From NCBI GenBank assembly GCA_030272155.1, contig CP126195.1, forward strand, positions 2,091,001-2,155,000: DNA of 64,000 nucleotides, read 5' to 3'. A program made the translations under genes and the position numbers. This stretch comes from Tetradesmus obliquus. Lineage: Eukaryota; Chlorophyta; Chlorophyceae; Sphaeropleales; Scenedesmaceae. Shown piece by piece: positions 302 to 63,717 of this stretch. Every line of letters begins with the position of its first letter. Position 1 is the stretch's first letter. The notes beneath the pieces are model-generated. The model saw only the letters and a list, made by a program, of their open reading frames with translations, did not search any database and was not told the DNA's origin.

Positions 302-2807
302 TCAACCATCTGCAACAATCGTGATGGTGAGGGAGATGCCAGCTGTGTACACTTTTGGGTCTGTTCCATTTACTGCACTGTACCTGCAAGCCCAACAGCA
401 AGGACAATAATGTGATTTAAAGGCAAGAGCCGGCTTGTGGATATGCTCTGTACAAACTGCACTGATATTTGGCAGCCGTAACCAGGCCAGCAAAGTGAAG
501 CACCAGTCGGTATGACATCAGGGCTCCAGTCCCTTTTTATATGTGTGTACTCGGGGTCAGCAGACTCTGTTGTGCCTTGCAGCTGACACACAGCGCTCAA
601 CAGCCTCTGTGCTGGCAGCACGAAGCATACATGCTGGCGTGCTGCTGCTGCTGCTGTTGCCGCCGCTGCTGCTGCTGCTTCTGCCGCTTCTGCTGACCCT
701 GCTGCCGCTGCGGCTGTGCTGCTGCGGCTGCTGCAAAGGCATCAGCTGCCGCCTTTCCCCGCACCTGAACCTGTCCGTGAATTTGACGCCAGCCAGGAAG
801 CCACTGTTTGGCAGCGTGTAGACGATCCACTTGCCACCTGTACCAACAGCCGCCGAGCCTTTTGGGGTGCCGATGTTTTCGACAGCAGTGATGCGCAGAG
901 TGTCGGCTGGGGTGTCGTCATCGAGCACGAACAGCTTGGCAGTGAATGTAAAGCCTGTTGTGACATTGCCGGTGTAGGTGTTGTCAGTCAGCTCAACGGG
1001 AATCTTCACAGCACTCGCATCTGCAGGCGGAACAGGCATCGCATGCAGCGGTACGAAAAAGAAATGTTTTGGGGGATGAGCTGTGTGGGCTGCAAGCAGA
1101 TTGGCGCAGTGCAGTGTAGTACCATGCTCTTGCACTGCAACTGAGGTTGCAGTGGCAGGCCCTTGCACTGGAACTAGACTGAGCGGCTAACAGCACCACA
1201 ATCATGCCAGACTCACCAACACTGACGACGGCTGTTGTGGAGTCCGTGTTGCCGCTGCCATCGCTGGTGAAAGAAAAGCTCTGACAAAGCAACCTTTTGT
1301 GCACTGCTGAGCTGTTGCAGGTATGGCATACATATACACTCACCAACGCTAACGACGGCTGTGGTGGAGTCGCTGTTGCCGTCGCCATCACTGATGGTGT
1401 ACTCGATGTCAAAGGAGTAAGAGGGGCCGCTGCAGCAGCAGAGGCGATTTGAGGAGGAGCAGGTTCAGTCACTGCGATTAAAAAGCACAACCATGGTACA
1501 TGGCATAATGATAATTGTAAGAGGGCCCAGCTTGCAGCAAGGCACACCACGTGAGCACATGCAACTCTGCTACTGGACCCGTGTCACAACTGGCTAACGG
1601 CTGCACATAGGGCATGACAGGCGGTATATGGATTGAATCCATGTCAGTGACAAGGACCCATGCAAGCAATCTGATCCTGCATTGGAGGATCTGTGCTCAC
1701 AGAAGGCAAGCACATCTTTGTTCCCGATGACTGGCTGCTCAATGCATCAGCTATAGCACTGCAAGCCATCTCACCTGTACCCTTTGATGGTGTACACATA
1801 GTAGCTCTTGGCTTGGTTCCACACCAGATCGCCATATGGGAGTCCGATCGACGTCAGATTGGCGCTCAGTATGTTGCCGGTGTCATTTGCAAACAGGTCC
1901 AGAATGGTGGGTGGCAGGTTGCCGCCCGCATCCAGTTTGAGGTTGTATACATCAGGGTTGGCTGACAACGCCTCTGCAGGAGGAGAGAAGTGCAGCAGGG
2001 ACAGAACAGGCAGCAGAGGCAGCAGCAGCAGCAGCCGCGGTGAATCACAAGTTGGCAACAGTCTAGCTCACGGCAGGTTGAATGCACAGGCAACAAACCA
2101 TCTGGCTGCTGCGTCGTGCTCCGTCCCTGCCACTTCAATTACAGATCAGCTGACCTTGAAGCAGCAGTAGCAGCAGCTACACCAGCAACACCATCCCCAC
2201 CAGCAGCCGCCGCAGCAGCAGCAGCAGCCTACATCCTCTCACCTGGCGACACATTCACCAGCACATTCGCCTGTGCAGACGCTCCGCTGCTGTTCTTCAC
2301 GGTATAGCTGAAGCTCTCAGTGATTGGGGCTCCATCATATCCATTCTCCACCAAGGACAGGGTGTACTTTACGCTTTGCTTGCCAACAGGGATGCTCAGA
2401 TCGCCTTTGAAGCTGCTGCCCTTGCTGAAGGAATCCACAAACATGCCGATGCCCTTGTCATTTAGGAGCACAGGCAGGTCCCAGGACTTGCCGGTGGATC
2501 CTGTTTTCAGGTTGAGGGTGAATGCATCGTTTACTGCCAGCAGTGGCTGGCCTGGACCGGAGCCACCTGCAGCAGCAACATGTGTGATAGAGTTGTGGAA
2601 CATCAACAAATTACTCACTGAAAGATGGCAGTTGCATGTACACTAGGAAGAAACACAACCTGGGCAAGGTGTCATTCACTGCCAGCAGGAGCTGGCCTGG
2701 ATTGGTGCCACCTGCAGCAGCAGTGAGTCGAACACCAGTATGCTGGTCTGCAGCACATGATCAGAGCTGCATAAAGCCAACACAGCAGTGTGCAACAGTT
2801 TTAGAGC

Positions 2808-2855
<48 letters not shown>

Positions 2856-5286: not shown

Positions 5287-5321
<35 letters not shown>

Positions 5322-6723: not shown

Positions 6724-6788
<65 letters not shown>

Positions 6789-7829: not shown

Positions 7830-7863
<34 letters not shown>

Positions 7864-8046
7864 CTATGAGCCTCACAACGTCGCTGCTGTGAGTGCAGTG
7901 AGCGGAGGCCAGCCGCCCTTGCATGGGATGTGCAAGGTGATGCACACATAATGTTGGTGTATTTTAGCATCATTCCCGTGGCTGGTCTTCCCTTTGAAAC
8001 ACACATTTCACATTGTGAACTTCACAAGGCAGTGCAGCACAAACAT
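5428..8046. other. Intergenic region between paralogues C and B
   Basis: About 2.6 kb with no recognisable exon. It should contain the promoter of paralogue C and the 3' end of paralogue B. It holds a GAT/ATC microsatellite and short CTG arrays. The stretch 5750-6420 is noticeably richer in A+T than its surroundings. No terminal inverted repeats, transposase or reverse transcriptase were seen. Confidence 0.5.
6724..6788. repeat. (CAT)n microsatellite, about 21 units
   Basis: Perfect trinucleotide array in the gap between paralogues C and B. The apparent poly-Asp, poly-Ile, poly-Ser and poly-Met frames across it are not genes. Confidence 0.97.
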
Positions 8047-11000: not shown

Positions 11001-11335
11001 TGGCGTGATCTGTACAGTCACAGACGCCTGCGCTGTCTGGCCGGCGCTGTTTTTCACAACATACTTGAACCTCTCGATGAGCGGCGTGCCATCATACGCC
11101 TCTGGCAGCTCATATGTGATGCTTTTGCCGCTGTCTGCAATGCTGATGGTACCCTGGAAGCCGCTGCTCTTGTCAAGCACAGAAGTGACCACTAAGCCAC
11201 TGCCCTTGTCATTTGTGAGCACCGGCAAGTTCCAGGTTTTGCCGGCAGTGCCATACTTCAGGAAAAACAGGAACTTGTCATGACCTGCTGACACAGGCTC
11301 GCCTGGTGTACTCGTGGTGCCTGTAGAGGAGGAAC

Positions 11336-11380
<45 letters not shown>

Positions 11381-19200: not shown

Positions 19201-21440
19201 CGCCTTGTGCACGACGGGTGGCTGACAGGCTTAATCTTGGGCAAACCAGCAGGCTGCAGCTGCAGCTTCATGCGTCTCCTGCCGTAAGTGCGTAAGCCAT
19301 ACAGCAGCAGGCAAGGGCTGAGGTGCTGTAGCTGGCATCTTGCTGGCTAGCCGCCGCCTGGCCCTCACCTGGGGACACCTCAACATCAACGCTTGCTCGA
19401 GCAGAGCCGCCAGCACCATCCCTCACAACATACGTGAAGGTGTCGGTGAACGCAGCGCCATCGAAGCGTTGCTGCAGCCTGTACACAATGCTCTGGCCGT
19501 TTGCAGGCACGCTGAGGGTGCCTCTGAAGTTTGGGGAGGCTGATATAGCAGAGATGACGAATATGCCCTTCCCTTTGTCATTGTTGAGAACAGGCAGGTC
19601 AAATCGTGCGCCTGTTGTGCCGGCTTTCACTGTGAGGGCGAATGTGTCATCTGCTGCTGTCACGGGCTGTGGCGCTGGGTCGTCAGTGACTGTAGAGCAG
19701 GGGCGGCAAAGTGGAACATGGAGATCAGGCGGCAAAGCAGTACATGGGTTTGTGCAGCGTCATCTGCTGCTGTCACGGGCTGCAGTGCTGGATTGTCAGT
19801 GACTGAGCAGCACGGGGAGCAGGCAGCACAGCAGCACACATTTGATGATCGATGGCGCTTCGCAGACGTGTACCACCAACATGCAAGATGTGGACTTTAT
19901 CTCTGCAACACGCACTGCTGCGTGCGTGTGTTTGCGCCTGCAGTGCTGTCCCAGTAGAAGCAGGTATACACAGGTGGCCAGGCTGCAGCGGCGCCACGTT
20001 TGCACAGCAATCCACAGCTTGTTAACTCACCAACTGACACCTCCACGCGCGCACTGCTCGTTGCGCCTGTCTCATCCCGCATCCTGTACCTGAACACCTC
20101 AATAAACGGCTTGCCATCGTAATCCACAGCATACTCAATCGACTGCTTATCTGCGCTGATCTGAACCCTGCTTGTGGCGGGTGTGACATCCAGCAGGATG
20201 AGATCACCGCTGCCAGTGTCATTCTGCAGGACAAAGAGGCTCCTGCTGCTTGTTTTACCGGCGGCTGCGCGGATGGTGTAGCTGTCATCACTGGCAGCGA
20301 TGACGGGGGACTGGGAAGGGCCTGCGGTGCAGCGGCAAGGCAGCTGCTTGGGTGCGTGCATGCAAATTATGCACATAACTATAAGTAGGTTGAGTGCAAG
20401 TTGTTATGATGAAGATGCAGATGGAACATTGCGCTACTCAACAGATGCAAGGGGGCTGCGGTGCTTGCACAAGTGTGGCAGACAGGGTCGCAGACAGCAG
20501 GAAGTGTGGCAGACAAAGTTGCGCACAGCAGCAGTTGCGGCAGGCAAAGCTGCCCACAGCAGCAAGTGTGGCGGGACAAGCCTGGGCAGTATACTTGGGC
20601 AGCTATTTTGAGTGTACCCATGCCGCAGATAAAAACATACATATATCGCCTGTGTGCATGTTGATGTGGGCGTGCATCACATGTTGGATTGAGCTACTCA
20701 ACAGTCCTGCCAAGACCTCCGTCAACAGACTGTCAGCCTACCAGCTGTGGCGTTGGCACCCAGCTAGCGACATAGAGCACGCTGCAAGCTGTAGACTGTA
20801 CGCTGCTGCTCACCAACGTTCACCACGACCCTAGCCATCTTGGTTGTGCTGTTCTTGGCATCTGTTACTTCATACAGGAACGTGTCTCTGAATGTGGCAC
20901 CACTGTAGCTGGGGACCCTGCAGACAGGTGTGCAGCGCACAAGGCACATGCTGTTTCATCACATGTTCTTCAAAGCAGCATGCTGCTGCTAGTACAGTCC
21001 CAGGAAATGACACAAGCACCTGCACACTCGAGCGTTACGATTCACAGCGAGTACACACACATCTGCAACCTCCAGACACACCACGCACAGCACTAAACCT
21101 ACAAATCCACAGCAGAGCGTCACGCGCAACAGCTGCTGCATGCAACCTTTCCAGCAGCCTCAAGAACAGCACCACTCACGTGTAGATCACAAAGCGCTTG
21201 TTGCCTGCGATGCTGGGCACGCCCTGCATGCTGGGTGTCAGCTTCAGCCCCACAAGCTGCAGCCCACTGCCGGCATCATTGCCCAGCACATCAAGCCGCA
21301 CCCGCTGCTGCCTGGCTGGGCTGCCCGGCCACTCAAACTTGAAGCTGTCGCCGGCTGCAGAGATGCTGGGCGTGGCGGGCTCTGCAGCAGCAGGTGGCAG
21401 GGATTAGCAGCAGCAGCAGCAGCAGCAGCAGCAGTTGAGT

Positions 21441-21487
<47 letters not shown>

Positions 21488-24809: not shown

Positions 24810-27101
24810 TCACACCAGGTCCACCATCTCGCAGCCACCTGCAGCCGAGCACGCCAGCTCGTACTCGCACTTGTCATCCCCTTCCTTCCTTTCAAGCTCG
24901 CGCAGGCCAGCCCAGTTAATGGCAGGCGGCATGCGCGCCAGCAGCTCCTCGTATGCCGCCTGGTCCACCTTTTCGTACGGCGTCTGGCGGTAGCTGCCGC
25001 AGTCGTATGGCAGGAAGGACACGCCTGCGGGGCGAGGAAAACAGGAAAAGACAGTCAATGAGTTGTACAACCGACAGAGGCAGGGTAGCAACGGGAGGGG
25101 AAATCGGTCATGCTACAGAGCCGGCGTATGTATGGTCAGCTGGCAAAACTGTGCACAAACAGCAACCAAACACCTAAGAGACGCACATCTACAGATGAAA
25201 ACCACAGCCAAGGCAGCACAGCAGCGCACGTCAACTAAAGCACTCACCTGATACCTCGTCGAAGTGCCGGTAGACCCATGCGCCCACATCCATCCACTCC
25301 TCCTCGCGCACAGTGACAGTGATGCTGGGCTTGTGCTCGCACCAGTGCCGCTGGTAGGCCAGGCACAGCTCCAGCTGGCTCAGCGCGGACACATCGTCAC
25401 GCGTGACAGCGCCATCAGGGGCCTTGATGGGGAAGCTGTGGCCAGAGAAGGGGTGTGGTCGCAGCAGAGATAGCAAGGGTGAGGATGCAAGGAGATTGCA
25501 CAGCACGGAGCATGCAGCATGGCATGCAGGAGCTGAGGCAGGCGTTGCATCAGCAAGGTGGGCATTGCATAGCGAGAGGAGCGTGCTTGACGCACAGCAA
25601 GCAAGCGCCACAGTTCAACCTGCTGCACATGCTTTGCATGACAGCAAACACTGTTGCAGTGCCAGGCGGAATGTTTGCACAGTTGTCTGATTGTGCCCCA
25701 TTTGCCGTCTTACCTGAAGACCGCGGTGGTGCCGGGGTTCATGACACAGTCCTCCATGGGCACGCTGTGCTCCGCCATGAAGCCCGTGAGCGGGTCGTCC
25801 TGCAGCAGCAACATACAGAGTGAGGCCCACGATCAGCACTATCAAAAGGATGAAGGCAGACAGGAGGCAGCAGCAAGACAGCAAGGCGCACGCACATCAC
25901 TGCAATGACAATCAGGCTGCAATGTGCCAGCTGCAGGGCATGTTGCATCTGCAGAAGACTCTCTCTGCAGTAACTAGAAGATGCTGCTTCAGCCAGCCAG
26001 TTGCAACCTGCAGCGTAACGGCCCCCAGCTGCCCCAACACCCAGTGCATGCTGCCTCGTCACACCACACCACGCCGCAGCGCAGTGCGCCGCACCTTGTT
26101 GCAGCGCACGCGCCGGATGTAGTACTCGCTGTGGCGCGGGTGGATGCCGCTGGCGCTGTCCACCAGCTGGCTCACAGTGCCGCTGGGCTTCACACAGGTG
26201 ACAGCGGCAGCCTGGGGGATGCCCAGCTCTGCAGTCAGCTCCGCATTCACCTGCGCGGTGCACGGAAGGCATCAGAATTCAGGGCCAACTGGAGCATCGA
26301 ACGGTCACGATGAGCAGAGCTGCTGCAGCCTGAGATATGCCCAGCTCTGCGGTCAAATCTGCGTTGACCGGCGGGATGCGCAGACAGCAACAGGAGTGTG
26401 GAAAGCCACATGCAGCTATGGGTGTGCAAGCAGCCGTCAGCCAGCTTACCATCCCCAGCAGCGCCGTCACATCCCAGCAGCCTGACAACAACAAGGGCAC
26501 ACAGCCATCACCCAGCTACCGAACCACCTGCAACCCCGGATACCCATGCGCCTCACCTGCACCGCGTGCGCCTTGAGCTGCTGCAGCGTGTCGTTCAAGG
26601 GCTCCATGCCCTGCTGGCCGCTCATGAGGGCGTTGTCCATGATGCCGGTCAGGCTCACGCCCAGCAGCCGCTCCGCGCTGGTGTTGGACCGCCACACGTC
26701 ACGCAGGTAAGGGAACTCCACCAGCGTGGACTGCAGGGAAGGAAAAGTAACAAGCAGATGTGATGATATGTGACAATGTTATGTGGCAACCACCAGGAGG
26801 TGCAGGTGAGTGTGCACGCCACACGTCATGCAGGCAGGGAAACTCCACCAGCGGAGACTGCACCATCACAACAAAAGGCGTGTACCAACATGTATTGGTG
26901 GCAAGGTAGGGGGAGTGCATGTGTATTGGCAGGGAACAGGTGTACCAAACTTCGAGTGTGCTGTGTGCTACGAAGGCACCTGGCAAGGCCAAGGACAGCA
27001 GCTTGTAATAGGCTAAGCGAAAACATGAACACCATAACCAACACATGCAGGAGAAGTCACATTTCTCAACAGCCATGCAGCAGCAGCAGCAAAGTCACGT
27101 A

Positions 27102-27133
<32 letters not shown>

Positions 27134-27729
27134 GTCGCACCTGGAATGTGCCCAGGATGGTGGCGAGGCGCGCCTTGCGCTTGAGGCTGGCCAGGTCGTC
27201 ATGCTGCCGGATGATGACCTCCGTGAGGTTGCAGAACTGGTAGGGCCGCAGGATGATCTCGCTGCAGGGGGGAAGGGGAGCAGGGCAGCATGCAGGCAAA
27301 GCACAGTGTTAAAGGCAGCACACGGAGATGCGGTGCTGAACTGGTTGCAGAACTGGTAGGGCCGCAGGATGACCTCGATGCATCGCAGAAGGGCGGCAGT
27401 ACAAAATGTGAGACAGGCAGTGCAGGACGCAGGAACAGCAGGCAATGACATACACCTGACATGTGACAGCTGCAGTCTCTGCATGAAGCAGACACACTGG
27501 AGATTGTCTCATGTTGCGCCGGAAGGCATTTACTTCAATCTAACACCATGCTCACCAGCAGGGGTTGGTGCCAAAGTCCTGCGTGGCGTCGCGCCTCCCG
27601 CTGCGCGCCGCCTGGCGCTGCGCCGCCGCCCTGCTGAAGAGGCCGCGCTCGCCGCTGCCGCTGTCGTAGAGGCTCTTCCACTCCGCCAGGAACGTGCCGA
27701 TGGAGGGCTTCTCTGTGGACGCCGCCGCC

Positions 27730-27760
<31 letters not shown>

Positions 27761-35100: not shown

Positions 35101-36249
35101 ACTGTTGCAGACCGCACCTGTAGTCAAAGGCCAGCACCGCCATGCCCGCCTCCACAAACTTCTCTGCATACATGAACAGCCCGATGTCTTTCTGGGCGCC
35201 CATGCCGTGACCCATCACCAGCACGGGGGGCGGGCTGCGGCAGCAGTGGCAGCAGCACAATTTTTTCCTGCAAAGCTTCTGGATGCAGGAAAGGGAGGCG
35301 CTTGAGAGTGCAGCACTGCGTTGTTGTCACAGAGCAGTAGCTGTCGGGCAGATGTTCTGCAATGGTGCCTTGCTTGTGAGCTCGTGCTGACCCGCTGATG
35401 CGACGAGCCTGCGTACAGCCTGCACACGCTGCTGCAGCATGCGCACAACAGTGTCATGCTGGAAGCCATACGCAGCGCAGGCGCTGCTGTTGTTCAAAGC
35501 TGCTCAAGCATGATGCAGGCGCCGCACCTGGTGGTGTGTTTGGGCAGGTAGAGCCATGCCTCTAATGGTGTGCCATGGCTGTTGATGTGAAGCACGCTGC
35601 GCGTGAACCTGCAGGCAGCAGCAGGGGCAGCAGGGGCAGCAGCAGCAGCAGTGCAAGGGGCATCCAATTACAATCCATGCGAGAGCTTCAAACCCTTGCC
35701 TGCAGCATAGTTCCAATACTGGTTGCAGGTTACATGATAACAGACAGCTGTACACGCTGCCAAGGCTTGCAATCTGGATTGCCGGTGCACCAGGGACCCA
35801 TGAGGCACAGCTGCCTGATGAACATCATCACAGTGCAGCTCAAGCTGGTTGCGCTGCATCAAGGCCTCTACTTACGATGCTGTGTCCTGCTCTCCGGTGT
35901 TAGGAACTGGCGAGCGATCCCAGTGGAAATGCGTGTCGATGTGCTTCTCCCATGGCAAGGCAAGCAGCAGTGCTAGGGCACCTACAACCAGGCTCAAGCG
36001 GAAGCCCAGGGCGGGCAGAAGCCCCTCTTTGTTGTACATGAGCGCTGGCAAAGAGCTAATGAGTTCGCAGTGAGCTCGCAAGCGGCCGTCCCTTCGACTT
36101 TGAACTCCGAGAGGCACTCCAAAGTTGTGTGGACGTGTCTGCCGGAGCCTAGAGACACGATCAAGCAGCGACACCCTTGCTGGCTTCCTCAAGCTGCCTA
36201 AGTGGGCATCAAGGTGCAGGGCAGGCGTACTCAAGAACTGCTGTGTCAT
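32165..36249 (-). CDS. Membrane-anchored alpha/beta hydrolase (467 aa)
   Basis: Seven exons: 35876-36249, 35528-35608, 35118-35234, 34142-34232, 33786-33911, 33290-33490 and 32165-32578, totalling exactly 468 codons. An N-terminal basic region is followed by a single hydrophobic segment (about residues 82-98, LSLVVGALALLLAL), a likely signal anchor. The catalytic domain follows: GHGMG (oxyanion region), AGMAVLAFDYRGFGGSGG, the nucleophile elbow GVSYAGG (Ser240), a catalytic Asp in RVASLDHLCPP (near residue 385) and a catalytic His in RNVTHLEAH (near 416-420). It resembles peptidase S15/dienelactone-hydrolase-like alpha/beta hydrolases; the substrate cannot be told. The start is the first ATG of the open first exon. 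Introns hold several exon echoes and a 28-bp minisatellite. Confidence 0.85.
32660..32709 (-). repeat. Echo of hydrolase exon 32165-32578 (5' end with acceptor)
   Basis: Copy of the start of the last exon with a TTGCAG acceptor, about 125 bp upstream. It differs at several positions and has shifted codons, so its use would change the reading frame. Confidence 0.82.
32781..32948. repeat. 28-bp minisatellite, six copies
   Basis: Six uninterrupted, identical copies of a 28-bp unit (starting AGGAGATCATGTAGACATGC) in the last intron of the hydrolase gene. The perfect identity suggests recent expansion. There are no spacers, so it is not a CRISPR array. Confidence 0.97.
34679..34712 (-). repeat. 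Echo 3 of hydrolase exon 35118-35234 (3' end)
   Basis: Most distant and most diverged copy of the exon end encoding AVLAFDYR, in the downstream intron. The donor region reads CAGGAGG rather than CAGGTG. Confidence 0.6.
34855..34896 (-). repeat. Echo 2 of hydrolase exon 35118-35234 (3' end)
   Basis: Copy of the segment encoding VEAGMAALAF with a downstream GTGTG in the donor position. It has a short deletion relative to the real exon. Confidence 0.75.
34989..35045 (-). repeat. Echo 1 of hydrolase exon 35118-35234 (3' end with donor)
   Basis: Copy of the exon end reading LVEAGKAVLAFDCR followed by the same GTGCGG donor, about 120 bp into the intron. Spacing and divergence grow from echo 1 to echo 3, as in an ageing tandem array. 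Confidence 0.85.
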
Positions 36250-37598: not shown

Positions 37599-37658
37599 GT
37601 AGTCCGGGTGCCCGTCCAGGGACTCTGCGCAACGCCTTCATGATCATGTTGTGCAGCC
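37599..37658 (-). repeat. Echo 2 of START-like terminal exon
   Basis: Diverged copy of the last ~60 bases of the START-like coding region, including the ATGATCATG segment. It lies downstream of the gene. Confidence 0.72.
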
Positions 37659-37711: not shown

Positions 37712-37779
37712 TTATGCGTAGTCCAAATGCAGGTCCAGGAAGTCCGCACAGCGCTTCAAGACCTTGTCGTACAGCTCCA
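37712..37779 (-). repeat. Echo 1 of START-like terminal exon, with stop codon
   Basis: Copy of the gene's end reading KRCADFLDLHLDYA and then a stop, 115-120 bp downstream of the true end KRCADFLAGHPDYA. It would lie in the 3' UTR. There is no intron beside it on this side. Confidence 0.85.
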
Positions 37780-37829: not shown

Positions 37830-38188
37830 CTACGCATAGTCGGGGTGCCCAGCCAGGAAGTCCGCGCAGCGCTTCATGATCATGTCGTACAGCTGGTGGT
37901 GGCCCGCGATGCGCTGCGGCAGCGGGTCGCCCGGCTTGAAGGCGGAGGCCAGCACCTTGAGCACCGTGCTGTAGAAGAACGGCGCAAACACCTGAACAGC
38001 GGCAGCAGCAGCAGCAGGGATACATCCACATGAGGTCTGCACATCTTCAGGAAACAGCATGAGCATGAGTGCGCACCCAACCAAGCTGATAGCAGACAAG
38101 CACACATACAACAGTTCTGCTGGCGGCGGCCATTTGTGCGCCCCCCAACCAAGCTGATAGCAGACAAGCACACATTCAAAACAAGCAA

Positions 38189-38240
<52 letters not shown>

Positions 38241-39494
38241 GCTGCTGCTGCTTGCCGTACCTTCAGCACAAAGCTGATGATAGCCTCCGGCACATGCGAC
38301 TCCGTCTCAATGTTGGCCACCACACACACTTGCGTCTGCTGCTGCTCGCCATCACCAGCACCAGCACCAGCACAAGCAGCCTGCACAGTGCTGCCGTCTG
38401 CTGCCACAGTCACTGCTGCTGATGCTGCCGGTGCTGCTGCTGCTGGTGCTGCTGCTGCTGCTGCCACTGGCACCATGGTCATGCAGCTGCCTGGCATGAA
38501 GTGGATGTGCACGCGCTTGTCTGCGCCTGCAGGCAGCTCGTCGCCAGGCTGCAGCAGACAGCGCAACCGGCAGGCGGCCAGGCGAGTCAAGACCCCGCGG
38601 AAAGAGTTAGCACGGCAAAGGCAGCTTGTCGCCAGGGTGCAGCAATGAACGCAAAACACACATATACAAGCAGGGGTACAAAAGACATACAGAGTAACAG
38701 TTACACACTCCACGCGGTGAGTGTGCCAGGAGAAACATGCAAGTGGGCTATGAACACACCAACTGTGTTTTGCTACTGCGCGATCGTATGAGCAGGGACA
38801 CTTCATGCTATGCTCCCGCCGGCCCATCTCTGCTGTCATCAAAGCTTGCCCACTGCTGCCCTCTCACCGGCGCATCTGCATCACGTGGTGAGGCAAAGCT
38901 GATGGCCACCACACCTTTCTCCCTCAGTTGGTCATCTGCCACTGCAGAAATGAGCACGTCACGCTCAGCAAAGGGCCACGGCAGCCACACAGAGGCATAC
39001 ACCAGCATGTCCACATCACAGTAGGTCTGCAAAGAAGAGGGAGGTTGATTGCAGCGACAGCAGCGACGGCGGCAGCGACAGTGACGGCAGCAGATGGCGT
39101 GTCAGCCGCAGGTGCTGGAAAGCCTGGAGATTTGCAGCCAATTATACCCAAGATTGCATCTGCAGATGCTTGCTGCCGGTGCTGATGTGGGTGCTGCTGC
39201 CGCCGCCATTGCAGCTGCTAGTATCACACTGACCACAAAAGCATCTGTCGCCACCAGCACTCTGTGTTTGAACCGCAGGTTATGTGTTCAACTGCCTGCC
39301 AGTCACCAGCTGCATCTGTCTGCCTCATCATTACGCCAAGGTCATGCAAACCATATTGCTTGTCTCGCTGCCCTGCTACTGCCATGTTGCTTGCTCCCTG
39401 CCACCGCCGCGCACCCGCAGTATGCTGCTGTTGGTAATGTAGCTGTTCCAGCTGCTGACCAGGTCAAACTCCTTGGCCATGGACAGCGGTTGCT

Positions 39495-42622: not shown

Positions 42623-44724
42623 ACAGTGGACCTTCTGGATCGCTTCCTGTCAGCAGTGCCGGCAGTGGCCTGCTCAGCAGGGCAGGCGCTGGGGGCCACC
42701 TGCCTGTGGCTAGCAAGGTGAGGCGCAGCAGCAGCAGCAGCTGTGGCAGCAGCAGCAGCAGTAGTAGCAGCAGGGGTAGTGTTGCAGCAGTCGCAGCAAT
42801 AGCAGCAGCAGTGACGGCAGCTTGCCTGCGGCTGGCAACTATTCATCGCATCTCGCACGCCGCTCATCTCTGCAGCAAACATTTGACACAACCCAACAGG
42901 CGTGTTTGATCCTGCATACTGTGTGTTGTATGCCGCAAGTACAGAGGAGGTGGTGCCGTGCAGCACTGATGCGGCCGGGGGATTCTTACTTATGTTATTC
43001 TCATGAAACAGCTATGGGACAAAAACTGAATCACCCTGCTTTGTGTCTGCCACGCAGCAAGTACGAAGAAGTGGTGCCGTGCACCATGGACGACCTGCGC
43101 TGGCTCACCGGGGGAGCTTTCAGCGCGCAGCAGCTGCGAGACACAGAGCAGGCCGTGCTGCTGCTGCTTCTCTGGCGGCTGGCGCTGCCCACTGCATGGA
43201 GCTTCCACAGCCAGATGCTGGCAGACACGGGCGCAGGTGGGCGGCGTGAACTTGGGTGTGAAGTATGCACCTGTATGTGAAGCTGACCGTGAAGTTGCAT
43301 GTGAGAGGTGATGGGAACGGAGCTTCCACAGCCAGATGCTAGCAGACACAGGCGCAGGTGGGCGGCGTGAACTTGGGTGTGAAGTACATGCCTGTGTGTG
43401 AAGATAACTGTGAACTTGCTTGTGAGAGTGGCTGGGACGGGGAGCTTCCACAGCCAGATGCTGGCAGACACGGGCGCAGGTAGGCGGCGTGAACTATGCC
43501 TGCGCAAGTAGCACCGAGAGCTCGAACAAATCCGCTTGTGCTTGACGACTGCTCATCTTGATACATACAACTCATCTTGATTCGGCTCCCACCCTGTTTG
43601 CTGCTGCTGCTCTGCTGCCCCCTGCTGCCATGCTCCTCCCTCTGCGCCCCACATTCTTACAAGCAGGCAACCAGCAGCAGCTGGCCTGCCTATCAGCCTT
43701 CCTGCTGGAGCTCTCCCTGTGCTGCGATGACCTGCTGACAGTGCTACCCAGCTGCCGAGCAGCAGCAAGCTTGTACCTGGCACGCCGCATCTCAGGCTAC
43801 ACAGCAGGCAGCTGGGACAGCACTGACAGCAGCAGTACTGGGGCAGCTTCTCTTGCGGCTTCCACATCATATCGGGAGAGTGATCTGCTGCCAGTGGCAG
43901 AGAGCATTGCATGGATGCATTGGCTTGTGGTCAGTTCCAGCAGCAGCAGCAGCAGCAGCGCGGGCAGGGGCAAGCTGACAGGGAGCAGGGAGTACTATGC
44001 AGCAGAGGAGAGGTTTAGCGTGGCAAAGGCGCTGCCGGTGTGCTTTGAACTGGCGTTTGCGCTAAACAACATACCCAAGGCGTCTGCACTGAACCGCTGT
44101 GATAGGGAGACGAGCGAGCGCGTGCAGCAGCAGCAGCAGCAGCCTTGTGACTGGCAGCAGCAGCAGCAACAGCACGACACCTCATGGCCGTGGCGGCAGC
44201 AGCAGCAGCAGCAGTACGCAAGCTGGGCTTGGCATCCGCAGCAGCAGTATGCAGGCTGGACACAGCAGCAGCAGCAGCAGCACGCGTACTGGGCCCCGCA
44301 CACGCCTTACGTACACTGCTATGCATGCTGGGCACAGCAGCAGCAGCAGCCAGTGCAGACACATGTGAACCAGGCATACTGGTACCAGCGGTATCCGCAG
44401 CAGCCGCAGCAGCAGCAGCAGTCATACTGGGCTTACCCACAGCAGCAGCAGCAGCAGCAGCATGCGTACAAGCCAGCAGTTCAGCAGAAGGCACAGCAGC
44501 AGCAGCTGCGGCAGCAGGAGCAGCAGCAGCAGCAGCAGGACTTGTCGCCCTGCAACACAAACTTCATGTCACATCAGCAGCAGTACATGCAGCCCGGACA
44601 GTACCAAGCTGGCTATGCTGCAGCAGGCTATGCTGCATACTGGCCACAGTACTACTACAATCGCCCCGCTTGGACAGCAGCAGTAGCGGCATCACCAGCT
44701 CCCTCAACCCCTGGTGTGCTAGAG

Positions 44725-50737: not shown

Positions 50738-53700
50738 AGGGCCGCTTCCGCTTCAACTGGCAGCCGCGCAGCCAGCGCATCTACCACGGCAGCGCCATCG
50801 ACAGCAGCGGCCGCATGATTGATGAGGTGCTGCTGCTCGCCATGCTGCGGCCGCGCTCCTACACAAGAGAAGATGTGATTGAGCTGCACACACACGGCGG
50901 CGGCGTGTGCGCGCAGCGCGTGCTGCGGGCCTGCATAGAGGCCGGCGCGAGGCCTGCGAGGCCCGGGGAGTTCACGCTGCGAGCTTTTCTAAATGGACGC
51001 ATGGACTTGTCTCAGGTAGGTGCAAAAGGGAGCGTGTGTGGGCGGTGGTGTCCGGTGTCGACTGTTGTTTGTTGTGGCAGGGTTGTGCCTGCATTGGGTT
51101 GTGTGCAGCGCCATGGTCCTGCTCAAGCGAAGAATGTGCTGCAGCAAATTTGCTGCATGTCAATCTCTGCTCCGACCCAAACAATGCCTGGCCTGCCGCA
51201 TTGCCAGGCCGAGATCGTGCTGCAGCTCATCAGCGTGTGCACCGCCACCTGCAGCCTCTGCACCGTTCAAACCCTCCGCAACGCCTGCCGCACGCTTTGC
51301 TGATTGGTCAACACCATACTTACTTAATCGCAGGCCGAGAACGTGCTGCAGCTCATCAGCGCGCGCACCGCCACAGCAGCAGACAGCGCCCTAGCAGGCC
51401 TTGCTGGGGGCCTGGGCCAGCTGGTGTCTGAGCTGCGCGGTGACCTGCTTGAAATATTAGCGGAGCTTGAGGCGCGGCTGGACTTTGATGATGACCTGCC
51501 CCCTATGGATGTGCCAGCACTGGTGGAGGACATCACAGGTGGGTCGGCGTCTGCTTTGGCTTCAAGCCAAGTGCAAGTTCAGTGTGCTGCTATGGCCGTT
51601 TGGCTGTGGCTTGATCGGCTTGGGGGCCTGAGCAGCTGGTGTCTGAGCTGCGAGGAGATTTGTTTGAATGTCAGCGGAGCTTGAGGCGCGGCTGGACTTA
51701 TACGATGCCCTGCCCCGGATGGATGTGCCAGCACTAGTGGAGGACATCACAGGTGGCAGGGGTGTCAAATGTGGACGGGCCACGCAGCACACGCTCGCGA
51801 CACCCTGCGTGAATTTGCACTGCAGGGTGGTGTTGAGGAGTAAGCACTCTCAGCATAAGAATGCATGTTTACATCTCTTGCATGTTTCCCAGAGTGCTCT
51901 GGTGCATATGTTTCCCGGAGCGCTTGTTTATAAGTGTGTAGCCATAGCTGTGCATAGGCATGCAGTGTCACTCACGTGCATGTGTGTGTGGCAGCATCAC
52001 CTCCTCAAGTCTCGGGCAGCTTCCTATTCGACCAGGTGTCTGTGGTGGTGTATGCCGCATGAACACACCGTGTAACCTTTCTATCGTTGTGACCCCTCTA
52101 TATATTGTCAAGTCCTTGGGCAGCTGGCTCAATATCTGGTGTGACTGCTGCGCCGCTGCTGCTGCTGCTGCTTGCAGTGCTTCAGCGGGACATTGAGGCT
52201 GCGCTGCGCACCAGCAGGCAAGGCAACCTGCTGCGGCAGGGGCTGCAGGCAAGTGACGCAACACAGCAGGCAGCAGGGCACAGACAGCTGCCTCTTTATG
52301 CACCTGATAGCTTGCCATGCTCAGGATACATGTGACATGGCAGATAAGCTGGGAATCTTCATGCACCTGATAACTTGCGATGCACAGGATACATGTGACA
52401 TGGCAGATAAGCTGGGAGCCATAAGATAAGCTTTGCTGCAGTTGCATATTGCTGCGGTCCTGTGATAGAATAATCCAGCGCTCATGCACCCGAGGCAGCG
52501 TGAGCTTGCAGCCTTGGCCGTCGCCCAACAAAAGGGAGATGGTTGTTACAACTGTGTCGTGTCTGAGGCTGCCAGAGGCTGCCAACAGAGGTGATGCCTG
52601 CTGCTGTGCTGCGGCTCACACGGCGCTGTACAGACCTCGACCGTATAGCCAACTGGGCTGTGTGCTGCTGCTGCGGCTGCTGCGGCTGCTGCCGCAGGTG
52701 GCCATCGTGGGGCGGCCCAACGTTGGCAAGTCAAGCCTGATGAATAGCTGGACAGGCACCAACAGGGCCATTGTTACTGACATTGCTGGCACGACACGTG
52801 ACGTGCTGGAAGCAGGTGACACAAGCGTGACAGGCGGCAGGACTGTGGCTGCTCAGTTGTGTCTGCAGATTGCGTTCTGCTGGTTGTGTCTGGGTGATTT
52901 GCCACAACGGAGTATGCTGCTGTGCTGGTGCAACATGCATATGCTTGCCAGTGCTGCTGGTGCTGCTGCCTCTTGGTTGCCCTATGGTCTGCTCCTGCAC
53001 CTTACCTCCAGCACTACGAGTAAGTAACAACTAACAATTGTGTAACATGTTACATGACACCTGCAGGCCTCACGGTGTCGGGTGTGCCCATCACGCTGCT
53101 GGACACAGCAGGCATCCGCTCCAGCTGCGATACAGTAGAGCAGCTAGGAGTGGAGCGATCAACGGCAGCAGCAGCGGCAGCAGATGTGGTTGTCATGGTT
53201 GTTGATGCTGCTGCCGGGTGGACAGACGATGATGGCGAAATCTTTGATGCGCTGTGGGGAAGAGGCGGCCCCGGCAGCAGCTCCTGCAAGGTCAGGGGGC
53301 CGGCGCTGCTGGTGGTCAACAAGAGCGACCTGGCAGGTGGGTGGAAGTGTGAGGAGCGCGTAGAAGTGTGAGGGGGCAGGCATGCTGCACACAGTCCTGC
53401 TGTTGCCGCAGCCGATGGTCCAGCAACAAAGGCAGTTTGGTTATGATGCTGCTGACAGGTCTCGCCTCCAGGATGCGGGTCGACACAGAATCAGCAGTTG
53501 CTGCATCCGGTGTGTCTCAGCGCTTGATCTCTATGTCTTCTTTTGCAGCGCCATACTGCACGCTGGCGCGTCAACCCTCGAGCAAGCCCCGCTCCCGCGC
53601 GTCCTCTTTGCGCTCACTCACTCTCGTGCACACCTGCCTGCCTGCTGCTGCTGCTGCTGCGGCGGCGGCGGCTGCTGCTGCATTATCCACCTGCTCCTCG

Positions 53701-56883: not shown

Positions 56884-58879
56884 TCAGTGTGCCGCAACAG
56901 CAGCAGCGCTGCCGCCATTATTGCTGCTGCTGCCTGCCACCAGCCGCATGCCCTTTGACAGCCGCTCCAGCACAAGCGAGATGTGCTTCTTCAGCCGCGC
57001 TGTATCAGCAGCAGGCGCCAGTGGCGGCACTGCTGCTGCAGCGTCCTTGGCTGAGCGCGCCAGGGCGCTGCGTAGCAGGTGCGTCATGGCTGCCTCGGTG
57101 GTCTCCTCCCAGCTCACCTGCACACAAAACAGCGGAACAGAAAATGCAGCAGAGTCCTTCAGCTGAGCAGGTGGCATGAGAGAACAGTGCAGCAGGTGCG
57201 TCATGGCTGCCGAGGAGGTCTCCTCCCAGCTCACCTGCAGGTGGCACACCAGCAAAGGGCAGCAGAGTCCAAAACCTGAGCAGGCAACATAAAAGAGCAG
57301 TGCAGCAGGTGCGTCATGGCTGCCGCGGAGGTCTCCTCCCAGCTGACCTGCAGGTGGCACAACACGGCACAGCAGCAGCGTTGAGACCCGGAGCTGCTGT
57401 GGCGCTGGCGCGGAAGCGCATCCACAAATTCACCCTGTCAACGATGTTATTGGCCAAGGTGCTATGTTGGCCTGAGTTGTTGCACCAGCTCCCAGGCTCA
57501 ATCAAAGCACCTTGTGCTGCAAACGTTTTACACGTGCTTGAGTCATATCCGGTGTCTGCACCTACCTCTGGCCCCTCCAGCACCACTGGGCTCAAGGCGC
57601 AGCGCATTTGTGCACGCACAACAGGCAACTGTGCAGCTGCTGCGTGTGTTGGCAAAACACAAACACACGACATCATGTGCTATGATGTGTGGTCAAGTAT
57701 CTGCACCTACCTCTGGCCCTTCCAACACAACGGGGCTCAGGGCGCAGCGCAGCAGCTCAAACTCCTCGGCAGCCAGCTTGAAGCGGAACCTGGTGAGCAG
57801 CAGCAGCAGCTGCACGCCGGCCCCCAGGGCCTGGCCAGCTGCCAGCAGCTCAGCCTGCAGCTGCTCCATCTGCACACACAGCAGCACATGCAGCAACATC
57901 ACGTTGTGTAGTATACGGCGGGGGAGGTGATGAAGGTGATCAAGCGGCACTGCAGCGACAGCTGAGGCGTGGCACCAGTGGTATGGGCAGCTGCTGCTGA
58001 AGCTTGCATTGTCGTGGAAGAACTGCACAGTTATGCTGTCATGCCATGCCTTATCGCTGTACATGATTGAGTGTAGCTATCCTGAGGGCCAGGCTTTAGG
58101 GCGTTTGCAGCAACTGAGCGACAGCCGTTCTGCATCCGCAACTGCCCAGCAGGTCTGCCTGCAGCTGCCTGCCCATACAGCCTGACGACTGTGTGACGCA
58201 AGCCCCAGTGTGCTGTGGTGATGCCGCAATGACAGTGCACACGCATCGTGTTGCGCAAGCGCGCGTGCTCACCTGTGTTGCCAGGTCCAGTATTTGGTCG
58301 TACGTCTCCTCCATGAGCACGTCCAGCTGGTTCAGTGGCGCTGCATTGCGGTCCTGAGACCGTGTACAATTTGCAATTGCCAGTAGCAGCAACAGTAGCA
58401 GCAACAGCAGCAGCAGCAGCGACATCCATGTGCATGATGCGTGAAGTGGTTCAGCAGCGCGGCATTGCGGTCCTGTTAGGCCATGCGCAGCACAACCGCA
58501 GTAAGAACCGCAGCAACAGCAGCCATGAGCATCACAGTGACGCCAGCAGTGGCTATTCCAGAGGCTGAAACGCTAGTGCCATGCAGCACACGCTGCTGAT
58601 TGAAAAGGAGCACACAAGGAGCAGACATGGTTGTGTCAGACCTGCTGCAATGTGTTTGTGCGCAGCATCAAGCTGCTGGGCGGTCCCACAGTGTCCTTAT
58701 TTGTGTGTAAGATGTGACGCTGTGCAATGACTGTGCCTCACCTTGTATCGCACCAGCAGCCGCTTCTGCACGCTCCTGAACTGCACCTCGCGCTGCTCCA
58801 GCGCCTCATTGGCGGCAGCCAGCGCGGCGCGCAGCGCAAAGTGGCGGTCCACCAGCTCAAACACGTCCTGGCAGCAGCA

Positions 58880-58937
<58 letters not shown>

Positions 58938-60070: not shown

Positions 60071-60115
<45 letters not shown>

Positions 60116-62549
60116 GACTATCTGATCAGCACACAAGCACCGAACTGGTGTTGTAACCATTGGCACAATCAGTGGTGCCGGGCCAAGCACACTAGAGGTG
60201 CAACACACACATAATGTTGCTGCATGGCCTGGCTACAGGTCACACAAGATTTGTGGCACAGCAACATTGATGGCATGCTGCACACCCCCAATGAACCTCT
60301 GCTGAATCGTACAGATGCTGCACTCACCTGGCAGAAGAGGATCATGGGCAGCTGCAGCGCCAGCTGTGAGCACTGAAGCTGCTTGTCTGCTGACCTGTAG
60401 CACGCCACCACCTGCACAGGCAGAGCACAGCAGCGGCAACAAGATGACAGTTGCTGTTTTTTGCCGTCGCCGCACTCAGCTTTTAACTGGAGTCCACAGA
60501 AACAGACTGTTGTTGATGCCTTCTTTCAGCTGAAGTTCCTGCTGCAAGCATCCCTGTTATTGTCAGGATACACACGCCCACTGCCACTTAACACAGCAAG
60601 CACAGCCTGCAGAGAGCCACTCACCTCTGCAGTGTTGGCTGCCGGTATGCTGCTGCCTGCCGGCACCTGCAGCACCACCTGCACAGCCAGCGGCTCGCCA
60701 GGGCCCCTGCTGCTGCTGCTGCTGGGTGGCAGCTCAGGCAGCAGCAGCTGCTGCTGCAGAGCCACCACAGGCGCTGGCACTTGGATGCTGATGCTCACAT
60801 CCTGCAGTGGGCACAACACCTCCGACGGGTTACTAGGTGCAGAAGCACAGCTGACTGACACTGATGTGTTTTCCTTCCAAACACTCTGCGATCATCACAA
60901 CCTTGCAGGGATGCAGCTGCACAGATATACAGGTCAGATTTGCTGCCCAGGCTCCACGCCACGTGCAGAACCCAGTTTATCAGTAGCTAACACCAGTTGC
61001 TTTGACGCAAGCAATTTCAATCCAGCTGCCCTGACGCACCTTCATACTTGACTTGGTTGTGTTGCTGAGCAGCAGCGTCACTGTCAGCTGCTTCACGCCA
61101 GCAGCTGCTGCACCCCCAGCAGCACCAAACCCTGCCACACCATCTGCATTCGAGCCTGGCGGCCCCTCTCCACCCTCTCTCACAATCCTGTCAGCATCAT
61201 CCAGTCTGCTTGGCACCTGTGCCCTCAGCACCAGCTCCTTTGCTGCTGCTGCTGCTCCTTTCCCTGCTGCTGCTGCTGGTGCTGCTGCTGCTGGGTCCCA
61301 CCCCGCGCCACCTGCTGCCTTGATTTGGGTCAGCAGTGCTTTTCGCTCTGCCTCCATTGCAGCGTAGTCCAGCTGCTTGGACTCTGCAAAGGATACTGAC
61401 TGCTTGGGCGGCTCGCTGCCAAGGTACAGCACTGACAGCTTGCCTGCAGTGAACGACCACCACCACCAGCAGCAGCAGCAGCAGCAAGAAGCAACAGAGT
61501 GCATCACTGTGTGACAGTTGGTTTTACTCCGTCCCCTGGCAGCCGACTGAGCAGCAGTATGTCACCAGCATCAGAGTTGTAACACACGGCAGCATGCCAG
61601 CGCTGTACAAGCCCATGACGCAGATGTGGCTGGCTTGCGCCTGACGCTACACTTGATATGTGGTTACACCGAGGTTTCAACCAAGCCCGCCTACCTGTGT
61701 CATCCAGGGCCACGATCATGCCCTGCATGCCTTCCAAGGCTGCCACCCGCACTGCCACAGGCAGCATCTCCAACCGCGCAGCCCACGCTAGCTCCTGACC
61801 CCTGTACACCATCAACGCTTTAGTATGCGTAGCAACAAGCAAATTCTCCGGCGGCCGCTGCTGCTGCTGTTGGTTAGGGTTTGCTGTTGCGCTGCTGCTG
61901 CTGCTGCTGTCGGGGCCAGCTGGGAAGGGCCAGCAGCAGGCCGGGTGGTAGTCCAGCCGGCGCTGCAGCAGCAGCTGGCCCCGCAGGTTGAGCACGAAGA
62001 AGGTGTGCTCAGCCAGCACCAGGATGTCGGCAGGCGCATCTGCAGCAACAGACCCAGGAGTTTTTGGCTGAAGAAAGTATTGGTGTGATGAGCATCAACA
62101 TGTGTTTTCAGCCAGCACCAGGATGTCGGCAGGCGCATCTGCAACATGTACAAAGCAAGCAACAGTCCCAGGATCTTCAAAAAGACGCAGCAGATATTGA
62201 TTGCTTGTACAGAGAGCAATGACAGGTGGTTGCATGCAGGTGAAATGCAGGCTGCGCCACGTTGATCTACATGATATGGTGTGACACATATGCACAGCCG
62301 TCACATGCTCCTGCTAGGATGGTGATGTGGCCCAGACAGCTGCCGCAGTTATCATCCTAAAACTGCAACACCCAACACCTTGAAGATGGACTCCCCAGTG
62401 CACGCACCTGCACGTGTGTTGGCTGTGATGCGTCCTGTCCTGATGTCTAGTGCTGCTTCTCCCAGCACCACAGTCCAGTCAGCCTGGATGCGCTTGCCTG
62501 AGACAGCGCCTGCAGGGGGACCGCCTGCTGCAGCAGCAGCAACAGCAGC

Positions 62550-62589
<40 letters not shown>

Positions 62590-62959
62590 GTGCAAGGGCA
62601 TCATCAGCTACAGCAGCAGCATGCACCAACAACATCACTGCAGCAGTTGCAGAGGTGGGGCTGTCCAGGCAAGCATGGTCGTGCTGAGTTTGCAGGAACA
62701 TGCACAGGGGCGTGCTGCATGCTGAGCTGCAGCCGCAGCACTGGCACTGCTACCAGTCTGCTGCACACGGGTGTGGTCAATTGCCACAGAAAACTGCACA
62801 CAACGAGATGACCAACAACGTCCTGGCAGCTGCTCGCAACACAATCAGCACTGCTACTCAGTGATGGGCTACTGCCACAACACATCCGGGCACAATGCAG
62901 CATAACACAACCCAGGCCCTGCGGCAGCCTGACCCCTGCAGGCACATGGGCCACACAAA

Positions 62960-62998
<39 letters not shown>

Positions 62999-63717
62999 TT
63001 GCTGCCACTCGCTGCTGCCAGATTGCTGTACTTGTACGCCACGAGCTCCAGCCCTGCAGTTGAGGTGATGAAGCTGTCTGATGCTGCTGCGTATGCCAGC
63101 GGCCCAGGCAGCAGGAAGCTAGGCAGGAAGCGGCTAAAGGCCATAGCCTCCTGCTCAAAAAAGGTGAGCTGGCCATCATATGACTGCACCACAATGTGTT
63201 CTACACCTGCACATGACACATGGGCAGGACAGGGCGGACAGGGCCCATGTTGCTGCTGCAAAGCAAGCACCAGAGGCTCAGGCTCAAAGAAGGTGAGCTG
63301 GCCATCATATGACTGCACCATGATATGCTCCATGCTTGCGCAAGCATAGCGCAAGCGGCACAGGGCAGTCAGGAAAACTCATTGCACATGGTGCACTGTT
63401 GCGACATAGCAGGTTTCTGAAGTCTGTAGAAGACTGGAACAGCTGCTGCCATGTATCCCTTGCTCACCAGCAATGCCCCCGAAAGGCCCTGTAGCCATAT
63501 TGGCTGCTGTGTGCTCCAGATAGTGCTCGTAGATCTTGCTGTGCTGCAGGTAGCTGCTGCCGACTGCCTGCAGGGCGTACACTGCCAGCTTGCGTGGGTG
63601 CAGCACAGCCAGGCAGATGCTGCTGCTCCTGCAGGAACCAGTGCCAGTGCCAGGGAGCAGGGCAGCAGGCAGCAGGCGCAGTTGCTGAGCCCAGTCGCAC
63701 TGTCTTGGCAGAGCTTC
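56884..63717 (-). CDS. BBS9: BBSome subunit BBS9 (PTHB1), N-terminus beyond the window
   Basis: Thirteen exons seen: 63468-63717, 62961-63206, 62408-62509, 61695-62039, 61040-61443, 60625-60801, 60328-60411, 59969-60067, 59064-59348, 58742-58867, 58273-58353, 57711-57869 and 56884-57117, giving about 864 residues; human BBS9 has 887. BBS9 is a core scaffold of the BBSome, which moves membrane proteins in and out of cilia. Landmarks: ICLAVLHPRKLAVYAL, the propeller core VVQSYDGQLTFFEQEAMAF followed by SRFLPSFLLPGPLAYAA, DWTVVLGEAALDI, ILVLAEHTFFVLNLRGQ, MLPVAVRVAALEGMQGMIVA, LDYAAMEAERKALLTQIKAA, SFHFGGGQEVTILVSKNAGR, REVQFRSVQKRLLVRYK and PLNQLDVLMEETYDQ. Exons from 63206 downward keep phase throughout. 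The start of the 63468-63717 exon is uncertain, and one or more 5' exons are missing. A polyglutamine run ends exon 62961-63206. Confidence 0.9.
57187..57354 (-). repeat. Two tandem echoes of the last BBS9 exon (5' end with acceptor)
   Basis: Copies at 57187-57240 and 57301-57354 of the exon start (VSWEETSSAAMTHLLH and VSWEETSAAAMTHLLH beside VSWEETTEAAMTHLLR), each with a CTGCAG acceptor. The offset is about 115 bp. Three near-equivalent 3' splice sites therefore exist for the last exon. Confidence 0.93.
57543..57603 (-). repeat. Echo of BBS9 exon 57711-57869 (3' end with donor)
   Basis: Copy of the exon end (ALSPVVLEGPE) with the same GTAGGT donor, about 160 bp into the intron. Confidence 0.88.
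58442..58478 (-). repeat. Echo of BBS9 exon 58273-58353 (5' end with acceptor)
   Basis: Copy of the exon start (DRNAALLNH beside DRNAAPLNQ) with a CTAACAG acceptor, about 120 bp upstream. Confidence 0.85.
58872..58934 (-). repeat. (CTG)n array at a BBS9 3' splice site
   Basis: CAG on the plus strand, CTG on the sense strand, ending at the acceptor (CTGCCAG) of exon 58742-58867. Confidence 0.94.
59440..59745 (-). repeat. Three tandem echoes of BBS9 exon 59064-59348 (5' end)
   Basis: Copies of the segment encoding AHPAHAEALSRCQAAN lie at about 59452, 59580 and 59707, spaced 127-131 bp from each other and from the real exon edge. Each carries some upstream intron with a TGCACT/CAG acceptor region. 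Confidence 0.93.
60073..60113 (-). repeat. (CTG)n array at a BBS9 3' splice site
   Basis: CAG on the plus strand, CTG on the sense strand, just upstream of the CCACAG acceptor of exon 59969-60067. Confidence 0.94.
62095..62147 (-). repeat. Echo of BBS9 exon 61695-62039 (5' end with acceptor)
   Basis: Copy of the exon start (DAPADILVLAENT beside DAPADILVLAEHT) with acceptor GTTGCAG, about 106 bp upstream. It is nearly identical and therefore probably recent. Confidence 0.9.
62531..62588 (-). repeat. (CTG)n array upstream of a BBS9 3' splice site
   Basis: CAG on the plus strand, CTG on the sense strand, about 20 bases upstream of the CTGCAG acceptor of exon 62408-62509. Confidence 0.94.
62963..62997 (-). 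repeat. Coding (CAG)11-12 at a BBS9 exon end
   Basis: CTG on the plus strand, CAG on the sense strand, encoding polyglutamine in frame up to the donor (CAAG|GTTTGTG) of exon 62961-63206. Human BBS9 has no such run here. Confidence 0.85.
63274..63340 (-). repeat. Echo of BBS9 exon 62961-63206 (5' end)
   Basis: Copy of the exon start (MEHIMVQSYDGQLTFFEPE beside VEHIVVQSYDGQLTFFEQE), about 130 bp upstream. The protein-level match is nearly complete, so the duplication is recent or under constraint. Confidence 0.92.

Follow-up and report, generated by a model that had tools for sequence, protein, structure and literature searches.

Why do the introns of some algal genes contain copies of the edges of the exons beside them, and how did those copies arise? 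The question is raised by a 64,000-nucleotide stretch of the Tetradesmus obliquus genome (C5:2091001-2155000; GC content 55.9%), referred to as a whole as the window, where the terminal bases of predicted exons recur inside the neighbouring introns. We call such a copy an echo, and the sequence separating it from the exon edge the spacer. The observation is real: in T. obliquus about one fifth of exon borders have a decaying copy of the exon edge, splice site included, lying about 120 bases off in the intron. Each echo is probably the intronic half of what a tandem duplication of about 120 bp left behind, the duplicated unit spanning the exon-intron border at one or the other end of the exon.

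Frequency of echoes at exon borders

The window was analysed together with 200 kb of contig C1 (C1:1000001-1200000), giving 264 kb of the 104.66-Mb genome (17 contigs). Genes were modelled with a two-strand gene finder trained on these sequences, starting from long open frames and supplied splice motifs, which converged on AG/GTGAG donors and CTGCAG/G acceptors with a median exon of 142 bp and a median intron of 281.5 bp. An echo was called where the exon-terminal 50-mer aligned to the adjacent intron with a score of at least 40, and the number expected was taken from random introns. Echoes were found at 75 of the 380 exon borders (about 1.2 expected), with donor borders (33/187, 0.45 expected) and acceptor borders (42/193, 0.7 expected) both affected. 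By region the counts were 20/124 in the window and 55/256 on C1. Loci elsewhere in the genome gave 10/51 and 0/6 borders with an echo, or 8/55 when locus L031, chosen for a doubled-looking Pfam match (2/2 borders with an echo), is left out. A readable copy of its own exon edge is carried by 72 of 248 introns.

The sequence-only reading had named 16 examples in the window. A direct repeat of 42-60 bases (for a query 60 long) is present at all 16 coordinates, at offsets of 99-145 bp. Alignment scores are 53-112, whereas the nulls average 19-25; at several of these coordinates the highest null score is as large as 120, which was taken to come from random draws landing on the query itself. Where nine of ten genes had been said to be affected, the number at the echo threshold used here is 7 of the 10 gene models. 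Self-BLAST of the 264 kb, after length and complexity filters, returned 96 direct and no inverted local repeats, whose offsets have one peak at 105-135 and another at 240-255. In diagonal plots the similarity breaks off abruptly at the ends of most blocks, and outside them none is seen along the same diagonal. In the 75 echo pairs the repeat extends 18-134 bp on the exon side; on the intron side the median is 8 bp at donors and 6.5 bp at acceptors.

The window is rich in CAG/CTG repeats, and chance matches of CAG-rich sequence could in principle produce such a picture, as could an error of assembly. The excess of 75 over about 1.2 speaks against chance, as does the control with the edge reversed, which gave no match at 380 borders; the opposite edge of the same exon likewise gave none in 273 comparisons. 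Assembly error is unlikely because 58 of the 75 echo pairs are below 0.95 identity, and the assembly comprises 17 contigs. We regard chance or misassembly as a highly improbable source of the echoes. Other controls were not empty: the reverse-complemented edge matched at 4/380 borders and exon-interior windows at 7/170.

Echo pairs in the window

The pairs are given one per line as exon edge, then echo, with strand and, where recorded, offset and identity (id). RNR denotes the ribonucleotide reductase gene. The pairs with edges at 26204, 29739 and 51469 were absent from the sequence-only reading.

1338..1396 (-), donor side of exon 1344-1429; echo 1211..1269 (-), offset 127, id 0.85
2527..2572 (-), acceptor side of exon 2243-2566; echo 2672..2717 (-), id 0.85
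19646..19692 (-), acceptor of exon 19369-19689; echo 19759..19805 (-), offset 113, id 0.89
26204..26255 (-), acceptor of exon 26095-26250, RNR; echo 26322..26373 (-), offset 118, id 0.79
26690..26735 (-), acceptor of exon 26557-26730, RNR; echo 26817..26862 (-), offset 127, id 0.87
27208..27266 (-), acceptor of exon 27141-27261, RNR; echo 27331..27382 (-), id 0.81, 0.97 over best 35 bp
28473..28527 (-), donor of exon 28478-28689, RNR; echo 28363..28417 (-), offset 110, id 0.96, spacer without significant similarity
29739..29797 (-), acceptor of exon 29693-29792; echo 29865..29920 (-), id 0.83
32534..32584 (-), acceptor of exon 32165-32578; echo 32659..32710 (-), offset 125, id 0.87
35112..35172 (-), donor of exon 35118-35234; first echo 34992..35055 (-), id 0.75; second echo 34854..34905 (-), id 0.81; third echo 34676..34709 (-), id 0.82
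37831..37894 (-), donor of exon 37834-37991; first echo 37713..37776 (-), offset 118, id 0.78; second echo 37600..37657 (-), id 0.83
38531..38554 (-), acceptor, weak, at threshold; echo 38619..38642 (-), 24 bp, id 0.92, score 40
43054..43115 (+), acceptor of exon 43058-43236, cyclin gene; echo 42932..42982 (+), id 0.68 overall, 0.87 over best 29 bp
43198..43242 (+), donor of exon 43058-43236, cyclin gene; first echo 43319..43363 (+), id 0.96, and second echo 43441..43485 (+), id 0.98, both in one 121-bp tandem array
51346..51380 (+), acceptor of exon 51352-51538, MnmE gene; echo 51220..51255 (+), offset 126, id 0.89
51469..51542 (+), donor of exon 51352-51538, MnmE gene; echo 51683..51756 (+), offset 214, id 0.91
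57067..57122 (-), acceptor of exon 56884-57117, PTHB1/BBS9 gene; first echo 57162..57239 (-), in a 113-bp array, id 0.78; second echo 57297..57352 (-), id 0.89
57726..57751 (-), exon segment near donor of exon 57711-57869, weak, score 40, exon model doubtful here; echo 57581..57606 (-), id 0.88, within a 55-bp block at offset 145
57803..57864 (-), acceptor of exon 57711-57869, weak; echo 58107..58168 (-), offset 304, id 0.70, score 44
58310..58356 (-), acceptor of exon 58273-58353; echo 58425..58475 (-), id 0.77
61989..62044 (-), acceptor of exon 61695-62039; echo 62089..62143 (-), offset 99, id 0.88
63141..63210 (-), acceptor of exon 62961-63206; echo 63270..63339 (-), offset 129, id 0.81

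Other repeats are present in the same stretch. A 127-bp unit repeated 3.4 times at 59301-59740 begins within the exon that ends at 59309, about 9 bp from its edge, and forms a border array containing hardly any exon sequence; it is missing from the filtered local-repeat list. An intron that also has an echo contains 6.2 perfect copies of a 28-bp unit (32776-32948), and the pentamer CTGTG is repeated 43 times at 3594-3808 (96% matches).

Probable origin by duplication across the border

The duplicated unit measures 123 +- 18 bp, of which 25-116 bp are exon and 14-112 bp intron. The two parts trade off, as random breakpoints predict, with r = -0.67 (95% -0.81 to -0.46, n=45), an anticorrelation that is partly built in, one part being the unit minus the other. 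An apparent independence of the two parts (r = -0.08) was rejected as an artefact of an exon query capped at 70 bp. When the spacer was compared with the sequence beyond the echo, similarity at p<0.05 was obtained in 23/51 pairs with arrays included; among 43 single-echo pairs, for which some nulls hold very few spacers, the counts were 6 at p<0.05, 23 at p<0.25 and 32 at p<0.5. This residual similarity of the intron halves indicates that the intron part was duplicated too, and backs the earlier proposal of tandem duplication across the border.

The pairs with unrelated spacers could be taken to mean that the exon edge alone was copied, by a template switch or by a staggered break with filler, the spacer never having been part of a duplication. 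At 28363/28473 the edge is 0.96 identical over 50 bp and the spacers are unrelated (z 1.18), and a C1 pair at offset 134 has an edge identity of 0.97 over 39 bp with a spacer z of 0.00. The copies also end at +5 to +9, a sharp edge measured on a subset picked for its unrelated spacers. Simulation shows that much of this sharp cut reflects faster decay of the intron half together with the selection of pairs. Copying of the edge alone is also at odds with the overall residual spacer similarity and with arrays made of full units; it was rejected as a general reading and stands as a rival for a few pairs. We consider it unlikely.

The edge-spacer-echo layout also resembles an insert flanked by direct repeats, so that the spacer might be a mobile, introner-like element with a long target-site duplication. 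One spacer does match inside another spacer on C1 (78% over 65 bp). Comparison of 62 spacers with the 264 kb and seven small loci, among up to six matches listed per spacer, revealed no shared spacer family; apart from that one pair, all that came up were copies in local arrays and matches that were short or CTG-like. An introner-like family was rejected for this reason, and a mobile origin has very little probability.

The favoured account, tandem duplication across the border, has four steps that the sequences show. A unit of exon edge plus intron is repeated head to tail. The exon copy changes least as the echo and both spacers drift, the intron part fading first, so that the exon edge and splice consensus are left by themselves. 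Introns that have echoes exceed the others in length by about one unit per echo, and at some borders there are arrays of up to seven echoes. The duplication would presumably be harmless, with the splice site beside the exon body still working and the echo spliced out with the intron. Slippage between exon edge and echo may re-expand or contract units, renewing some echoes from the conserved exon, and could let repeats anchored in an exon persist where those confined to introns fade.

Decay, possible renewal and arrays

Divergence was measured in pairs whose spacers are at least 72% alike; the pairs overlap. In 24 exon-echo pairs with related spacers, differences amount to 72/1171 sites in the edge and 203/1475 in the spacer, so decay is about twice as fast in the intron half, as expected of a constrained exon. 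In ten echo-echo pairs from four arrays, edges (37/387) and spacers (57/615) diverge equally (0.096 vs 0.093), from which the echoes look neutral. The sequences thus look like those of a constrained exon beside a near-neutral echo, and a continuous range of echo ages, as had been suggested, is supported.

Decay of this kind does not account for every pair. Where edge identity is at least 0.95, spacers are unrelated in 4/9 pairs, compared with 1-2% in simulated plain duplications. Plain decay would leave fewer unrelated spacers than are seen, and renewal or some further step has to be invoked. With a less strict threshold, multiple echoes (two to seven) are present at 26 of 105 echo-bearing borders; arrays lie, for instance, at 19320-19859 and 193610-194391 of C1:1000001-1200000 and at 43198-43495 of the window. 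The inner spacers are related in 13 of the 21 arrays examined; seven of these 13 close with an edge beyond which the sequence is unrelated, and two are intermediate. Some echoes look as if they were renewed from the exon, presumably by slippage.

A number of points weigh against the account of border duplication, decay and renewal. All counts come from 264 kb of the 104.66-Mb genome, and all gene models are predictions, seeded with supplied splice motifs and without transcript evidence. The 7/170 exon-interior and 4/380 reverse-complemented windows match too. The built-in component of the exon/intron trade-off and the thin nulls of the single-echo test belong here as well. The divergence test is restricted to spacers with at least 72% similarity, and for echo against echo it has ten pairs from four arrays. 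Edges have fewer indels than spacers, a difference that the account does not explain. Unrelated spacers make up 45% of 49 observed pairs against 21-28% under simulated plain neutral decay, and at edge identities of 0.90-0.95 they occur in 0/8 pairs against 5-10% simulated. In four of the 13 arrays whose inner spacers are related, the sequence past the last edge is related too. Finally, echo-specific changes fall on the three codon positions as 34/26/51 (290/292/294 columns), a mild third-position lean (p ~0.01).

Excess at exon borders

Duplications of about 117 bp were simulated at borders, in introns and between genes, and passed through the same BLAST, with indel rates near those measured and an exon rate assumed to be one quarter. 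Uniform birth in this simulation predicts shares of 0.166 border, 0.307 intron-internal and 0.527 intergenic. The 46 observed loci at offsets of 80-170 bp comprise 30 from a border into a predicted intron, 3 from a border into unannotated sequence, 6 exon-exon, 3 intron-internal and 4 intergenic. With the six exon-exon loci excluded from both tests, border against intron-internal is 30 vs 3 where 35% border is expected among the 33 loci (p = 3.6e-11), and border against all other non-exonic classes is 30/40 (p = 5.9e-16). The contrast between borders and intron interiors on which the sequence-only reading turned is borne out: border-crossing duplications are about 19-fold commoner, corrected for opportunity and decay. 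The excess is not fully explained, and birth may be biased to borders.

Splice sites and coding potential of echoes

The claim that echoes create spare splice sites fits their scores. The 10th percentile of real sites is reached by 43/51 echo donors and 35/55 echo acceptors; the corresponding shares for the remaining GT and AG dinucleotides of introns are 9.5% and 24%. Such scores, and the third-position lean of the echo changes, would be expected if selection kept echoes as alternative splice sites or exons. Yet echo and spacer diverge alike, a frameshifting indel is present in 29/101 echoes, and offsets have no frame preference (38/39/29). Among echoes with unrelated spacers, the GT is lost in 4/32 donors and the AG in 7/30 acceptors. 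A coding role, or the alternative-exon role suggested from the sequence, is not supported by these results. Selection on echoes was rejected on the frameshifts, the frame-neutral offsets and the equal divergence of echo and spacer, and we judge it quite improbable.

Intron length and intron gain

Introns with no, one, and two or more echoes have median lengths of 243, 370 and 489 bp (n=176, 44 and 28). One-echo introns are longer than no-echo introns of at least 150 bp (median 267, n=138; p = 8.5e-8), and those with two or more echoes are longer than those with one (p = 0.019). Intron growth, also proposed from the sequence, is upheld at about one unit per echo. On the assumption of a steady state, and with deletions ignored, one neutral substitution per site would be accompanied by the gain of about 0.43 units at each border, which amounts to 104 bp in each intron.

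A signature of intron gain, a repeat offset close to the intron length, flagged 1 of 223 introns (control offsets: 8), and in this single case the gene model has probably taken an echo for a 9-bp exon. One predicted intron of 203 bp in C1:1000001-1200000, not flagged in that test, has an echo offset equal to the intron length at both borders, and is a candidate for intron gain by tandem duplication. The creation of new introns by these duplications is not established. As a tentative proposal, exon borders may act as anchors of self-renewing repeats, the constrained edge repeatedly re-seeding the intron, with border duplication largely setting intron length and much old intron being decayed exon edge.

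Genes carrying echoes

Five of the ten window models were submitted to Pfam and all five matched: class II ribonucleotide reductase, alpha/beta hydrolase, cyclin, MnmE and PTHB1/BBS9. Class II ribonucleoside triphosphate reductases are unusual in eukaryotes. The gene at 24810-30870 (-), with 15 predicted exons, encodes a B12-dependent (class II) enzyme of this type whose closest solved relative is PDB 1l1l. The alignment of the RNR model to 1l1l, checked at two of its five echo borders, runs through both (28478 and 26730) without a large insertion, which fits the copy beside the exon body being the coding copy there.

Tetradesmus obliquus is usually described as lacking flagella. The PTHB1/BBS9 gene at 56884-64000 (-), encoding a BBSome subunit, suggests that ciliary genes have been retained. 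Adjoining gene models for repetitive proteins with similar-looking domains occupy 370-22662 (-) (370-2988, 8732-9695, 10441-12000 and 16491-22662).

Beyond the window, a gene model on contig C3 (L032) encodes a stretch that matches the photosystem II D1 protease PDB 1fc6 at 90 of the 91 residues compared, with the mismatch where two predicted exons meet. As 1fc6 is the enzyme of Scenedesmus (now Tetradesmus) obliquus, the genome most likely belongs to this alga or to a very close relative. On C5, the D1-protease-like gene L029 contains open frames with repeated peptides at 620-1084 and 2940-3434 (YYTALQ; RRLAWCAPRRGWLRSCRGVSEALLL and variants), which are possibly further border arrays. In C1:1000001-1200000, predicted 63-bp exons at 66346-67129 repeat every 183 bp within one gene; this is whole-exon duplication, alongside the edge echoes.

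Relation to known systems

Tandem repeats spanning an intron-exon boundary have been described in lancelets as 'mirages', in globin, Adh3, troponin C and PGBD5 (PMC3087553, PMC3902484). According to these accounts, mirages occur on 5' and 3' sides, many copies carry splice signals, units are 10-160 bp with at most six repeat units, and clusters evolve in concert with their boundaries spared; they are described gene by gene in cephalochordates, with normal splicing backed by reverse transcription-polymerase chain reaction (PMC3087553, PMC3902484). The algal unit likewise spans the exon-intron boundary, affects both donor (33/187) and acceptor (42/193) borders, and carries splice signals (43/51 donors and 35/55 acceptors in the range of real sites). 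Set against the concerted evolution of mirages, 7/13 algal arrays end in unrelated and 4/13 in related sequence. The alga differs from what these sources describe in that about 20% of predicted borders are affected, with a corrected excess, near-neutral rates and an effect on intron length, and in that splicing here is predicted.

In the potato RNA-dependent RNA polymerase gene (RdRp), one tandem duplication spans the 3' end of an intron and the start of the next exon (PMC4974935); as reported there it made a new spliced intron and an inserted exon, whereas in the alga the copy seems to remain part of the intron. Another described kind of small intragenic duplication, which may take in splice sites, results in new introns; those of the alga lie within introns that already exist. 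Intron gain by tandem duplication of AGGT (Rogers 1989, Hellsten 2011; PMC3443670, PMC4974935) shares with the echoes a tandem duplication carrying splice-like motifs. In that process the intron is one unit, whereas the alga has none confirmed in 223 introns and one 203-bp candidate. Introners (PMC9860276) add intron sequence genome-wide as copies of one family, in contrast to the algal spacers, among which no shared family was found in the 264 kb and seven loci. Among titles and abstract openings of the open-licence literature, recurrent border duplications were found for lancelets only, with single cases such as potato RdRp. The structure had already been published as lancelet mirages; the alga belongs to a distant lineage, and the density goes beyond what we found described in those titles and abstract openings.

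What is new here is the lineage, the density and the measurements. Intron growth and the origin of spare splice sites have mostly been studied through transposons and intron gain. With readable echoes in 72 of 248 introns, a single genome allows one to measure how often borders are duplicated, how the copies decay and how this relates to the length of introns, and the occurrence of such duplications in T. obliquus suggests that the lancelet mirages are not a cephalochordate oddity.

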